Origin: Methylobacter sp. S3L5C
Lineage (GTDB): Bacteria > Pseudomonadota > Gammaproteobacteria > Methylococcales > Methylomonadaceae
DNA length: 64,000 bases
Reading direction: 5' to 3'
Assembly (NCBI RefSeq): GCF_022788635.1
Contig: NZ_CP076024.1
Coordinates: forward strand, 3,573,503 to 3,637,502
The position numbers and the translations under genes are program-made. The first letter of the stretch is position 1, and every line of letters starts with the position of its first letter. Shown here in pieces: positions 389 to 32,596 of this stretch. The notes below the pieces were generated by a model that did not search any database, was not told the origin of the DNA, and saw only the letters and a program-made list of their open reading frames with translations.

Positions 389-877
389 ATTTTGCAACGT
401 GTCAATTTCCTGGTAGAACCATTATATTCATATTTATATAAAAATTTCTAGCAGATGTTGTGCCATTATTTCTGTTAATAATAAATGTCGCTACTACAGA
501 CATATCGATAGACTAATTATTTATTTTTCAGGCTGATTTGAAGCTAACCAGCAAACAATTAATAAGGCTTCCCGCCATAAAAAATCAGCCAACATTTTAC
601 AAAGCCAATATCGGTTGATTGTTTGCACCAAATTAGTCCAGATTGCACTACAAAAGTGCTATGTTAATCAACAAGTAAGTCACTAACATTAAAAGAGAAA
701 CAATCAGTCATTATTTCCCTACAGCCAATACCGCTATTTCAAATTTTTGAGTGATTTTGCTAGACTGTTCAATTAAACTGACTAAAATGAATGGTAAATA
801 ACAATCTGTAATCTAAAGCCTGTTATTTCTGATTCATCCTTTGTAATACCCCATCTAAACCCAAGCGGACTTTTCTA
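389..877. other. Intergenic region between divergent genes
   Basis: About 490 AT-rich bases separate the minus-strand GH15-like gene from the plus-strand SHOCT gene and should hold both promoters. I see no convincing ORF, RNA gene or strong hairpin here. Confidence 0.5.
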
Positions 878-5094: not shown

Positions 5095-5790
5095 TTATTT
5101 ACCTAATACGACCCGTTGTATCGGGCTCCATTCACCATGAGCCTGACTTTTGTCCCACCAGCGCATTCGGTATTCGCGGGTTTCATAAGTGCCACCGTCT
5201 GCCACCGGGCGCTCATCATAATAAGGTTTTACGGTATTAATGGCTAAAAAACTCCAATCGCCACCATTACTATTCGTCTCTATCCAGATGCCATCATGAC
5301 CATGTTTTTTAAAATCAAAACGGACACGCGGGCCGGTATCACCTTGTTCCAGCGTCAGCGTATAGTCAGGAATGGGGTATTCAACGGTATTAACCGAGCC
5401 AATAATACCCAAATCGTGGCCGATGACTTCGGTGTACTTAAGGCTGGCTTTGATGCGGACAATCTGGTTAAACAGACGCTTTTGAATGCCCGGGATAACA
5501 GCAGGCGGTGGCGTGGTAAAGACTGATGCTTGCGGATAGTTGATAATATCATTGCCGCTACCGCTTATCATGAGTTGCTTATAGGCGGTTGCTTCTTTGG
5601 CATCGCGGCGCATGGCAGGATGCCATTGCTCTAACAGCCAAATATAATAAAGCAGATCCGCTGAGGTCGCCTTAAGCTCTTGATTATTAATACCGCACTC
5701 AGGGCCGTTAACCGGCAACTTTAAATTATAATGGTTTAGCCAGATAATTTGGGCAGCTTCGGTGGTAGGAAAAAAACTGTTACTGGTCAT
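5095..5790 (-). CDS. Uncharacterised 231-residue protein
   Basis: I do not recognise a family. The N-terminal half (1-120) looks helical, with many W and Y residues and a proline-rich link (TTPPPAVIPG). The C-terminal half looks like beta-sandwich: GPRVRFDFKKHGHDGIWIET through EYRMRWWDKSQAHGEWSPI resembles a fibronectin-III-type domain. There is no signal peptide. SD-like GGAGAG precedes the ATG. It is flanked by repeat-rich intergenic DNA and is monocistronic. Confidence 0.6.
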   Translation of the reverse strand: MTSNSFFPTTEAAQIIWLNHYNLKLPVNGPECGINNQELKATSADLLYYIWLLEQWHPAMRRDAKEATAYKQLMISGSGNDIINYPQASVFTTPPPAVIPGIQKRLFNQIVRIKASLKYTEVIGHDLGIIGSVNTVEYPIPDYTLTLEQGDTGPRVRFDFKKHGHDGIWIETNSNGGDWSFLAINTVKPYYDERPVADGGTYETREYRMRWWDKSQAHGEWSPIQRVVLGK

Positions 5791-27976: not shown

Positions 27977-30151
27977 TTATTTGATAAACAACATTTCTTG
28001 ATAGGTTGGATAAGGCCACAATTCATCGGCAATTTCACCTTCAAGCGCATCGGCATAGTGACGCACGTCATCCATGAGTGGACGGATGGATTTTGCACAG
28101 AAGTGCATATGTTCTTCGGGTGTTGAAAAATCATGCTGACTGATAGCAGCGCTTAGTTTATCTACCGTCTCCATCATTGATGTCAGCATTGCTGCGATCT
28201 TGACCAACCGTTCATTATCCAGTTCGATACCGTTGCTTTTAAGACTGCTGATGGTAGCGGAAAGCTCGGACAAATATTTGACAACAGCGGGATAAATGCC
28301 GGTTTTTGCCATACTCACGACCAGTTTTGCTTCCACATCAATGGCGAGTATGTATTGCTCGGAATAAATTTCGAAGCGACTGGCCAGTTCAACCGGTGAT
28401 AATACGCCAAGCTTGTCGAATAATTCCTCAATATAGGCTTCTTTTAAAACCGGTAACGCATCGGCTGTTGTTTTAAGATTAGCCAAGCCACGTTCTTCAA
28501 CCGCCATTTTATGCCACTCGGCGGAATAGCCGTTACCACCGAAGACAACTGCGCCATGCTGATCGATTAATTCTTTCAGTGTTTTAAGGATTGCCGTATC
28601 AAGATCAGCCCCTTGACTTATATTGCTTTCCAGAGTGTCGGCAACCCAGTTAAGTGAATCAGCCAACATCGTGTTCATAGCCACCAGAGGACCTGCGACC
28701 GATTGCCCGGAACCAACAGCACGAAATTCAAAACGGTTACCGGTAAAGGCAAAAGGCGAGGTACGATTTCTATCGCCCGAATCTTTATTAAAAACAGGCA
28801 AGGTATTGATACCCAAATTCATAACGCCAGCGTTTAGTGAGCCGGTTATCTTGCCATTGCTGATTTGCTCGAAGACATTATCAAGTTGCGACCCCAGATA
28901 AACAGACATGATGGCCGGTGGTGCTTCGTTGGCACCCAGACGGTGATCATTACTTGCCGTTGCGATAACGGCACGTAATAGTGGCCCGTATTTGTGGACA
29001 CCACGAATAACTGCGCCGCAGAACAGTAAAAACTGGGTATTGGAATGCGGTGTGGTACCCGGATCAAGCAAATTGCCTTGGCTTGCATTACCGACTGACC
29101 AGTTAACATGCTTACCTGATCCGTTAATGCCTTTAAACGGTTTTTCATGCAGCAGACAGACCAGACCATGTTTTTTGGCGGTATTTTTTAATACCGTCAT
29201 CAGTAATTGCTGATGATCCGTTGCTACATTGGCTGCTTCAAAAAAGGGTGCAATCTCAAATTGTCCGGGAGCCACTTCGTTATGCCTGGTTTTGGCAGGA
29301 ATACCCAAACGATATAACTGTTCCTCAGCATCCTGCATATACACCTGGATGCGTTCAGGTATCGCGCCGAAATAATGATCGTCAAATTGCTGGCCTTTAG
29401 CCGCCGATGCGCCAAACAAGGTTCTCCCTGCCAGCAGCAAATCCGGACGATTATTGACAAAATTAGCATCGACCAGAAAGTATTCCTGTTCAGCTCCGCA
29501 ACTGGAATTAACGGGCGCAATGTCAGTGTGACCAAGAAGCGACAAGACTCTCTGGGCGGCTTTATTCATCGCGGCATTGGCACGCAGCAACGGCGTTTTT
29601 TTATCCAGTGCCTCGCCAGTCCAGGAAACAAAAACCGTTGGAATACAAAGCGTAGCACCGTTGTCAGTTGTCATGATATAAGCAGGACTGGTAACATCCC
29701 ATGCGGTATAGCCGCGCGCTTCAAAAGTCGAGCGTATGCCGCCATTCGGAAAGGATGAACCATCCGGCTCGCCTTGCACCAGCACTTTGCCACTAAATTC
29801 AGAAATAACTGAACCATCACTTTGCACGGAAATAAAGCTATCGTGCTTTTCTGCCGTTGCATTGGTTAACGGATAAAATACATGAGCGTAATACAAGGCA
29901 CCCTTGGACAGGGCCCAATCTTTCATTGCCAATGCCACGACATCGGCAATAGAGACGTCAAGTTCTGCACCGGCTTCTATGGTCTTTTTTACCGATTTAA
30001 AAACGTCTTTAGGCAGGCTTTCCTTCATCTTGCTTAGCGTAAACACATCACTCGCCCACAGATTACTGAGCGATTCCGGTGTTTTAGCCGGCATGGGTAT
30101 TCGATTGGTAATGTTTTGTACAGCCTGAACGCGGGCACTATTTCCAGTCAT
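27977..30151 (-). CDS. glnN: Type III glutamine synthetase (GlnN)
   Basis: The 724 residues match the large GSIII subunit size. The N-terminus has the GSIII-specific [32 protein letters not shown]. The core includes [43 protein letters not shown] and [16 protein letters not shown], which carry the metal and glutamate sites. The enzyme makes glutamine from glutamate, ammonia and ATP. A sigma-54-type promoter lies 34 bases upstream of the start codon by predicted +1, so nitrogen-responsive expression is likely. A MITE-like element follows the stop codon. Confidence 0.93.
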
Positions 30152-30559: not shown

Positions 30560-31273
30560 TTAACAACCCTCATCATGAGTAAACCTCACGCGCTCCTCCG
30601 CTGAATGCCCTAATGCTTTGGCAAACCACGGCGGCGGCGCAGCAAATACTTTCTGAAATTCGGTTAACTGGTCAACCGCCCCGGTTACCTCAGGAATCTT
30701 GATCGGGTAAATATCGGCGCGTATCACTTTAGCTGCTGCCGGACCGCCAATTGATTGCACAAAAACTACATGACAATCTTTAATCAAATTAGCACGAAAC
30801 AGGTTTCTGTCATCACTACTATCGGCTTCAATAGTTGAACGTATATCAACCAGCTTATAATCATTTTGTGATAACTGATAAACCAGAAAACGTATGCAAG
30901 AGCCGAAATGCCCGTTAATCAATGCACCACTGTTTGAACTGATAGCGACACGAATAGAATCGGGGATTTCACCGTCTTTATAAGGTAGTATTTCCGGCAA
31001 ATCTTCATCTTCAGCCTCGTCGCCCCAAAGATACCGGACCGCCAGCTTTATATTGGCAAGGCCGATACCGATATCTTCACCATCTTCTTCGCCATCCAGA
31101 CTGCCCAAACCAGTCTTAAGATTGGTCACTGTGATCGATTTTAATTTTTCATCATCCAACGGCGAACCGACTCGCTCATGTAAAATTTCCAGTAATGCGG
31201 GTATGTCAATACCAGGTAGAATGCGCGACGCCAAGGCAATACGCAAAGCCAGTTCACGGGGTAATGCTTCCAT
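30560..31273 (-). CDS. nafY: NafY/NifX-family nitrogenase cofactor-binding protein
   Basis: About 237 residues with two parts. An N-terminal helical region (about 1-85, ALPRELALRIALASRILPG...) resembles the NafY apodinitrogenase-binding domain. A C-terminal NifX/NifB-like domain (about 108-237) has GALINGHFGSCIRFLVYQL, whose His and Cys are in the position proposed to bind iron-molybdenum cofactor. Such proteins hold FeMo-co or its precursor during nitrogenase assembly. The ATG at 31273 has GAGG upstream; an in-frame TTG at 31303 is less likely. It follows a rhodanese gene in one sigma-54-type operon. Confidence 0.82.
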   Translation of the reverse strand: MEALPRELALRIALASRILPGIDIPALLEILHERVGSPLDDEKLKSITVTNLKTGLGSLDGEEDGEDIGIGLANIKLAVRYLWGDEAEDEDLPEILPYKDGEIPDSIRVAISSNSGALINGHFGSCIRFLVYQLSQNDYKLVDIRSTIEADSSDDRNLFRANLIKDCHVVFVQSIGGPAAAKVIRADIYPIKIPEVTGAVDQLTEFQKVFAAPPPWFAKALGHSAEERVRFTHDEGC

Positions 31274-31333
31274 TTTGATATCCTCATTTAACAAGTATGG
31301 CAAATAATAATTGCTTTATAACCAAGTCCTTAT

Positions 31334-31642
31334 TCAGGCTTCCTGATGTTTATCTTTCCAGCTGGAATAACCGCCCTCCAGGCTGTAAACCTTCTTAAAG
31401 CCAAAATCAAAGAAAAACTCGGCAAGATGTTCGCTGGCATGACCGTAATAGCAATAAATCAACAAGCACCGCTGCTTATCGCCGCGTTTGACTAAAGAAT
31501 CTTTTAAACCTTCATGAACATGAAGGGCATCTTCCAAGTGCCCTGCCCGATAATCTTTTAAATCCCGGCAGTCAAGAATCATGGGATTGATTTCTTTAAT
31601 TAATTTTTCAGAATCGGTAATAGAGATAGTTTTATATTTCAT
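31334..31642 (-). CDS. Single-domain rhodanese (sulfurtransferase)
   Basis: The 102 residues comprise one rhodanese domain: MILDCRDLKDYRAGHLEDALHV (CH2A-like) and the active-site loop CYYGHASEH with Cys64, ending VYSLEGGYSSWK. It is GlpE-like in size and transfers sulfane sulfur. Its place directly before nafY, behind a sigma-54-type promoter, suggests sulfur supply or redox support for nitrogenase cluster assembly (inference). Confidence 0.85.
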   Translation of the reverse strand: MKYKTISITDSEKLIKEINPMILDCRDLKDYRAGHLEDALHVHEGLKDSLVKRGDKQRCLLIYCYYGHASEHLAEFFFDFGFKKVYSLEGGYSSWKDKHQEA

Positions 31643-31852: not shown

Positions 31853-31886
31853 AAAAAAAAGCGCCCTGACCGAGAAGGCAGGACGC
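31853..31886 (-). terminator. Intrinsic terminator of the candidate small RNA
   Basis: On the minus strand the stem GCGTCCTG...CAGGGCGC (8 bp with one G-U) is followed directly by eight T residues. It cannot terminate the rhodanese operon, which starts downstream of it, so it needs a separate minus-strand transcript. Confidence 0.8.
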
Positions 31887-31934
31887 CAAAGGTAAATGCC
31901 CAGGAGAGAGCAACAGAAAAGAGAGGTATCTTAA
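31853..31934 (-). ncRNA. Candidate sigma-54-dependent small RNA, about 82 nt
   Basis: A sigma-54-type promoter (31943-31961) gives a predicted start at 31934, and a strong intrinsic terminator ends at 31853. The intervening ~82 bases have no ORF. The transcript would begin with a short AU-rich part, then a pyrimidine-rich single-stranded stretch containing CUCUCUCCUGG, complementary to Shine-Dalgarno-like GGAGAG, then the terminator hairpin with eight U residues. This is the usual build of a trans-acting regulatory RNA. It lies in a nitrogen gene block. No known family is recognised. Confidence 0.55.
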
Positions 31935-31942
31935 TAAGGTAT

Positions 31943-31961
31943 TAAGCACTATCGATGCCAA
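31943..31961 (-). promoter_or_regulatory. Sigma-54 promoter of the candidate small RNA
   Basis: The minus strand reads TTGGCATCGATAGTGCTT, with GG at 31959-31958 and GC at 31947-31946, ten bases apart. CTTAATA...TATTAAG, a 7-bp inverted repeat, spans from the -12 element to the predicted start. TTTGCACCAA lies about 90 bases upstream at 32021-32030. Confidence 0.65.
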
Positions 31962-32020
31962 AACTTTATATCTATATATTTCAGTTACTTATATTAAATA
32001 CATACTTTTTATGCTTAATA

Positions 32021-32030
32021 TTTGCACCAA
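32021..32030 (+). promoter_or_regulatory. Second copy of TTTGCACCAA, upstream of the small-RNA promoter
   Basis: The same 10-base word as at 30337-30346 lies 87-96 bases upstream of the predicted small-RNA start, in the opposite orientation. NtrC-like activators can act from either orientation; binding is not proven. Confidence 0.35.
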
Positions 32031-32596
32031 AGACAAGCATTTATGTATTTTTACTGACCTAACTTTGTGCAATAAGATGTGCTGCCGAACGTGGCACATC
32101 CCTCGCTATCAAAAGGTTGTTTTATCCGTACCTTTTATGGACTTATAGTATATTTTGTTACTATTCAAACACAATAAAAAAATGAGCCATTTTCATACCG
32201 CTGTTAAAGAACACAATCCAGATAATGTGCCGCTATTCTTGTTTTTCAAATAACAGCCGTCCTTGCCTGAATTTCGTAAAAACATTATTTATTAGATTAT
32301 CCAATTGATAAATATGGATAAATTATTTAGATAGAGAATCAACAGAACCTAATAATTTAGATTATTGACTGAAAATCTATACGAAATAATTAAAATAAGT
32401 AAATAAAAATTCAAATTTAAAGTAAAAATATATAAAATACTTACACTACCCAAGGTAATTAGAGATTATTGATATGGCATCCGACAAAATCAGACTGACT
32501 GAGTACCAGACTTTACCTGTAAGATTGAAATAGTTAAGACAATCATATAGTTAATATTTTTCCGTATAAATTAAAAACCATCAAGAAGGTAATTTA
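32031..32596. other. AT-rich host intergenic DNA
   Basis: No convincing gene is seen. Features are GATGTGC...GCACATC (inverted arms near 32080-32101), a long A+T-rich stretch at about 32280-32460, and a 19-codon frame starting at 32474 (MASDKIRLTEYQ) without family support. Confidence 0.4.

Follow-up and report, generated by a model that had tools for sequence, protein, structure and literature searches.

A predicted sigma-54-dependent small RNA gene in the nif region of Methylobacter-type methanotrophs

In a 64,000-nucleotide stretch of DNA from Methylobacter sp. S3L5C (hereafter the window), the minus strand upstream of a rhodanese-domain ORF carries a sigma-54 promoter word followed by a stem and a T run. 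We asked whether this element is a small RNA (sRNA) gene in its own right or a part of the neighboring transcription units. The best reading of the sequence is that it is probably a free sigma-54 sRNA gene that belongs to no Rfam family. The features are listed in Table 1.

Table 1. Features of the sRNA locus in the window
Feature	Coordinates	Strand	Basis and remarks
NtrC-like site 1, TGCACAAAGTTAGGTCA	32055-32071, centre ~-129	minus	8/10 consensus positions; predicted from the general consensus
NtrC-like site 2, TGCTTGTCTTTGGTGCA	32023-32039, centre ~-97	minus	8/10 consensus positions; conserved in six-genome alignment
IHF-like word TAAGTAACTGA	31981-31991, ~-57	minus	one mismatch to YAANNNNTTGA
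Sigma-54 promoter -24/-12, TGGCATCGATAGTGC	31960-31946	minus	GG 31959-31958, GC 31947-31946, N10 between; read directly
Predicted sRNA, 82 nt	31934-31853	minus	model R2 77.8 bits; fold z -3.64
CU-rich conserved stretch CUCUCUCCUGGGC, candidate pairing region	31910-31898	minus	conservation within the window's genus
Intrinsic terminator: stem, UUCUC loop, eight T	31887-31853	minus	fold and covariation over 47 sequences
Sigma-54 promoter word of rhodanese operon, TGGCAGATAATTTGC	31806-31792	minus	same word <=120 nt downstream in 39/91 matches
Rhodanese-domain ORF	31334-31642	minus	PF00581; commonest conserved downstream neighbor
NifX/NafY-like ORF	30560-31303	minus	PF16844 and PF02579; TIGR02663 nifX 90.9 bits, cut-off 112
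Type III glutamine synthetase (glnN-like)	27977-30151	minus	PF12437, PF18318, PF00120

The original prediction placed a GG-N10-GC promoter on the minus strand, and the word is present there. It also described an 82-nt unit that starts at 31934 and ends in a strong stem with eight T residues; both direct reading (predicted +1 at 31934, T run at 31860-31853) and a shuffle-tested fold bear this out. The folding energy of positions 31934-31851 is -24.4 kcal/mol, where shuffles average -15.3, and 0 of 200 shuffles folded as well. The second-best place for model R2 in the window scores 13.6 bits, against 77.8 bits at the sRNA. The unit had been described as free of ORFs. Close homologues differ by 1 nt in length inside the conserved RNA block, which favors a noncoding unit. 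The same length differences speak against the element being the mRNA of a small protein, a reading for which its short length is the only argument and which we consider highly improbable.

A search at the DNA level gave matches in 10 of 41 genomes. Six of these, the window's own genome included, carry the promoter together with the RNA block, and three (L007-L009) carry the terminator and core alone, which we read as a promoterless form; the match in L010, a 26-nt terminator match, was dropped. The first covariance model was built on the RNA part of the six sequences from the predicted +1, hence without the promoter. At E <= 0.1, this RNA-only model found matches in 89 of the 237 genomes searched in the window's family, the Methylobacter-type methanotrophs. 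We examined the 91 of 110 matches that scored at least 30 bits, leaving out 19 below 30 bits. With a second model, based on 47 sequences, 91 of the 311 genomes searched in the order gave matches at E <= 0.01, and all those listed belong to the window's family. Class-wide, this model matched 4 of 369 genomes, two in the family and two weakly outside it (L147, L148). Stricter filters apply when more than 40 genomes are searched, so that absences of the sRNA are soft. The promoter-plus-RNA pattern was found in 27 records of the species collection, of which 25 are named Methylobacter, Methylovulum, Methylococcaceae or Methylococcales. The locus is also present in M. tundripaludum SV96 (L105). The matches in a Paludibacteraceae MAG (L102) and in Cupriavidus agavae (L123) were taken as chance matches, as were L147 and L148.

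Within the window, the promoter word offers little support by itself: TGGCAYN6TGC is present six times where 2.0 are expected, and 2 of 100 shuffles contain at least six. Across the family, however, TGGCA-N7-TGC lies upstream of 66 of the 91 RNA-model matches, compared with 1 of 273 background windows taken farther upstream; a search for the looser GG-N10-GC gives 71/91 and 63/273. This upstream conservation, together with the covariation of the terminator stem, places the promoter word above chance. The covariance search of relatives that had been proposed thus finds the RNA family-wide, with a sigma-54 promoter at the right distance both in the window and in those 66 matches.

The nine-pair terminator stem is the best conserved part of the element, with 98.6% of cells paired over the 47 sequences. 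Two-sided changes occur in 10 cells, distributed over three pairs. None of 500 shuffles reached the covariation score of the stem; 9 of 500 reached three covarying pairs, and 86 of 500 reached the number of pair types. The terminator loop and the single-stranded core that precedes the stem are also well conserved. The promoter association and the stem covariation support the predicted free-standing sigma-54 sRNA gene outside Rfam. The original prediction called the middle of the RNA CU-rich and unpaired. A conserved CU-rich stretch, CUCUCUCCUGGGC, is indeed present, strongly conserved in the window's genus and drifting between genera. CUCUCUCCU is not wholly unpaired: a weak GCUCU...GGGC hairpin in the window's own fold includes part of it and adjoins the rest. 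This upstream hairpin is not kept in the 47-sequence consensus. A CU-rich part that drifts beside a conserved single-stranded core and loop would also suit a CrcZ-like RNA that titrates Hfq or some other RNA-binding protein instead of base-pairing. GGA forms the core of CsrA/RsmA sites, and the window's transcript contains no GGA and is short for this role; we regard titration as improbable.

NtrC sites follow a TGCAC-N7-GTGCA type consensus, the IHF consensus is YAANNNNTTGA, and the glnA promoter of E. coli has a pair of NtrC sites 32 bp apart. Two predicted NtrC-type sites lie upstream of the sRNA promoter in the window, also 32 bp apart. In 67 family promoters, the best site of this type reached at least 8/10 in 35, compared with 95 of 1340 shuffles, with clusters near -129 and -97. 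Two such sites were found in 5 of 67 promoters (the window's included) versus 3 of 1340 shuffles, and 32 of the 67 are without a site of 8/10 or better. The exact IHF-like word is present in 26 of 67 promoters, always at -56 to -58; counted anywhere in the stretch, it occurs in 83 of 3350 shuffles. NifA-type TGT-N10-ACA sites are not enriched (4 of 67 promoters versus 80 of 1340 shuffles), and NifA was rejected as the activator. The NtrC-like clusters, the IHF-like word and the lack of NifA-site enrichment argue for an NtrC/sigma-54, nitrogen-limitation sRNA as the most likely identity of the element. The window's genome encodes NtrC, RpoN and Hfq. Because it encodes other NtrC-like activators too, NtrC itself is the likeliest candidate, yet one among others.

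Elsewhere in the window (451-465 and 620-660, minus strand), a sigma-54 word, TGGCACAACATCTGC, has two good NtrC-like sites upstream. It precedes a 1079-aa ORF (L149) that combines a Glyco_hydro_15 domain with a phosphorylase b kinase C-terminal domain; nitrogen may here control metabolism of the glycogen type.

The sRNA lies most often immediately before the sigma-54 promoter of a rhodanese/NifX-like operon in the nif region. The original prediction had placed it beside glnN and nafY; the neighbor most often conserved is the rhodanese/NifX-like operon. Fifty of the 91 matches have a rhodanese ORF no more than 500 nt downstream, and the sRNA promoter is present in 37 of these. In many matches the rhodanese ORF is on the same strand about 210 nt downstream, an arrangement that would fit a leader or attenuator, with conditional read-through from the upstream sigma-54 promoter yielding a long-leader rhodanese mRNA. 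However, the sRNA terminator had been predicted not to serve the rhodanese operon because the promoter of that operon lies downstream of it, and the operon does have its own sigma-54 word there. The same holds across the family: in 38 of the 39 matches with a second sigma-54 word, that word precedes the rhodanese gene. Copies without a rhodanese neighbor also speak against a leader, which we think a poor candidate. Between a GAGG motif and the start codon, the rhodanese leader (31780-31643, minus strand) contains a small inverted repeat, GAATGACTTTTTATAGTCATT; sequences similar to it are found in many relatives.

Upstream of the sRNA there is often an unnamed ORF (upX) or an AAA ATPase. One neighborhood (L101) contains a NifX-associated protein and a nif-specific ferredoxin. 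No marker genes were found near 26 of 68 promoter-bearing matches; one of these loci precedes an EAL-domain gene, and another is flanked by a GHMP kinase and a NUDIX gene. A genome contains up to four matches at E <= 0.1 and three at E <= 0.01. In three genomes of one genus (L054, L063, L065), the interval from the AAA ORF to the rhodanese contains two copies of the sRNA, spaced by a few hundred bases. A divergent version with UCCUCCUCC is found in the g27 genus (L086, L088, L091, L093), where three of four loci adjoin a COX1-domain gene. Within the family, nifD was found in 64 of 76 sRNA-positive and 71 of 161 sRNA-negative genomes, counts that ignore relatedness and include some incomplete genomes. 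Twelve of the 76 thus have the sRNA and no nifD found, and 71 have nifD without the sRNA; the sRNA therefore accompanies nitrogen fixation but is neither confined to nor universal in diazotrophs.

In the window's genome, a Mu-like prophage separates the sRNA from upX and nifHDK, and the upstream sites of the sRNA are intact. The prophage extends from ~32901 to 64000 and on into L134, with portal, head, tape measure and lysozyme genes, and a Mu transposase C-terminal domain in L134. Beside upX lies a 2111-aa ORF (L134:9041-15376) whose antisense frames recur every ~306 bp, which indicates internal repeats.

The promoter word TGG[CT]A-N7-TGC is present in 68 of the 91 matches and absent in 23. 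Seventeen of the 23 promoterless matches follow upX or the AAA ORF at a distance of at most 150 nt and in the same orientation, compared with 21 of the 68 promoter-bearing ones. The closest relative found (G092; NafY-like protein 98%, rhodanese 96%) belongs to the promoterless group. Its upX ends ~20 nt before the start of the RNA model, and its similarity to the window stops at ~31912, inside the RNA. Loss of promoter or terminator in close relatives had been named in advance as evidence against the sRNA gene. The promoter is absent in G092, which counts against a strictly conserved free gene; the RNA core and terminator persist there, as expected of a GlnZ-type 3'UTR-derived sRNA. In some relatives, the RNA core may thus be released from the 3' end of the mRNA of the ORF that it follows.

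The position of these 17 matches directly behind upX or the AAA ORF would also suit a conserved terminator or insulator that separates two nif-region operons, protects the rhodanese promoter from upstream transcription and leaves the short RNA as waste, and so would a stem that is better conserved than the rest of the element. Against this, most matches have their own promoter with spaced activator sites, the loop and the upstream single strand are conserved as well, and copies occur at unrelated loci. We consider an insulator unlikely. An NtrC/IHF-activated sigma-54 gene for an ~80-nt, Hfq-assisted, trans-pairing sRNA of nitrogen limitation remains the probable function. Sigma-54 RNA polymerase would transcribe the ~80-nt RNA; to go by the sites, NtrC bound ~130 and ~100 bp upstream, aided by IHF bending, would switch it on when nitrogen is short. 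The RNA would end at its own conserved intrinsic terminator. With Hfq, its mostly single-stranded, CU-rich 5' half could pair with the start regions of trans mRNAs and alter their translation in nitrogen limitation. That the CU-rich segment masks Shine-Dalgarno sites is a guess.

Target prediction with the CU-rich segment, also suggested in the original prediction, gave nothing robust. Against 135 candidate start regions in five stretches of the window's genome, the sRNA reached -30.9 at best (1% shuffle level -31.0). Among five other genomes, only G193 fell below its 1% level (-30.2), with nifD at -35.4 and one further ORF at -30.5. Pairing with nifH/D/K was compared for 14 start regions of six genomes, with 300 shuffled sRNAs each. 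Shuffles as good numbered 1 for nifD and 32 for nifH in G193; 35 for nifD and 48 for nifK in G093; and 39 for nifD, 67 for nifK and 267 for nifH in the window's genome, the remaining regions being weaker. The nifD of G193 alone stands out, and given this inconsistency we do not claim nif targeting. When the complement of CUCUCUCCUGGGC was sought with at most one mismatch, only the sRNA locus itself matched. CAGGAGAG-N1-9-ATG occurs at 19 places versus 7 for the reversed control, and CCAAAGGTA-N0-9-ATG at 20 versus 10 for its control. Thirteen ORFs behind such sites were scored, and for five, among the many tested, at most 8 of 300 shuffles were as good: window 5095-5790 (unnamed), one ORF each in L168 and L159, and two whose sequences we take to be IscA-like and Rieske-like. 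These five are leads only.

These methanotrophs limit the amount of methane released and often grow where nitrogen is scarce. If it is real, a conserved sRNA of the NtrC/sigma-54 type would offer a direct handle on their carbon-nitrogen coupling. Tentatively, we picture a nitrogen-status sRNA family peculiar to these methanotrophs that has alternated in evolution between two modes of production, one as the 3' end of nif-region mRNAs and the other from a free NtrC/sigma-54 gene, that has spread to several loci per genome, and that might link nitrogen supply post-transcriptionally to a wider regulon of the methanotrophs. The layouts with and without promoter are a natural test of conversion between 3'UTR-derived and free-standing sRNAs. 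Beyond the original prediction, the analysis adds the NtrC-type site pair, the IHF-like word, the family-wide conservation, the copies at extra loci and the promoterless form.

The locus was said to resemble no recognized family, and Rfam 15 gave no match at gathering score in the whole window and 20 family loci. MmgR / alpha-r8 of Sinorhizobium meliloti has a layout similar to that of the window's sRNA; membership in its family (RF00519 suhB) was rejected because the window (26.7 bits) and L004 (22.7 bits) stay below the gathering score of 41. In the open-licence literature, as far as the excerpts of the matches listed extend, no native sRNA of such kind appears for gammaproteobacterial methanotrophs. 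Excerpts on the alphaproteobacterial methanotroph Methylosinus sporium name EcpR1 and alpha-r45, those of a Methylomonas paper concern synthetic sRNAs, and those of a methylotroph review mention no sRNA of such kind.

Judging by the excerpted sources, sRNAs controlled by NtrC and/or RpoN are a known kind, represented by NrsZ, NfiS, NfiR and GlnZ. Excerpts also give MmgR and NfeR1 as NtrC-sRNA links in rhizobia, mmgR being positively regulated by NtrC according to a title cited in PMC9170634. The original prediction pointed to sigma-54-driven RNAs of nitrogen control elsewhere, and NrsZ of Pseudomonas aeruginosa is one: NtrB/C, together with RpoN, induces it when nitrogen is limiting (PMC9308961, in part). 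The window's sRNA is predicted to share this control, but NrsZ differs in being at least 226 nt long, processed and encoded beside ntrC, and the window's sRNA has no Rfam match to it. In the diazotroph Pseudomonas stutzeri A1501, NfiS is sigma-54-dependent and NfiR has a confirmed NtrC-binding site (PMC6606865, in part), and they act on nifK and nifD mRNA (PMC9170634, in part). For the sRNA of the window's family, predicted pairing with nif start regions is not consistently above shuffles. The Qrr sRNAs of Vibrio, as excerpted, are also sigma-54-driven and present in several copies; they differ in serving quorum sensing through LuxO, and their comparison with the window's sRNA is through the Rfam search. 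The enterobacterial GlnZ is an NtrC/RpoN-controlled sRNA released from a 3'UTR (PMC9731577, in part). It is made from glnA mRNA, whereas the window's RNA has its own promoter; the GlnZ-type layout, in a 3'UTR and with no promoter of its own, is absent from the window and is found in 17 of the 23 promoterless relatives, the form that GlnZ resembles.
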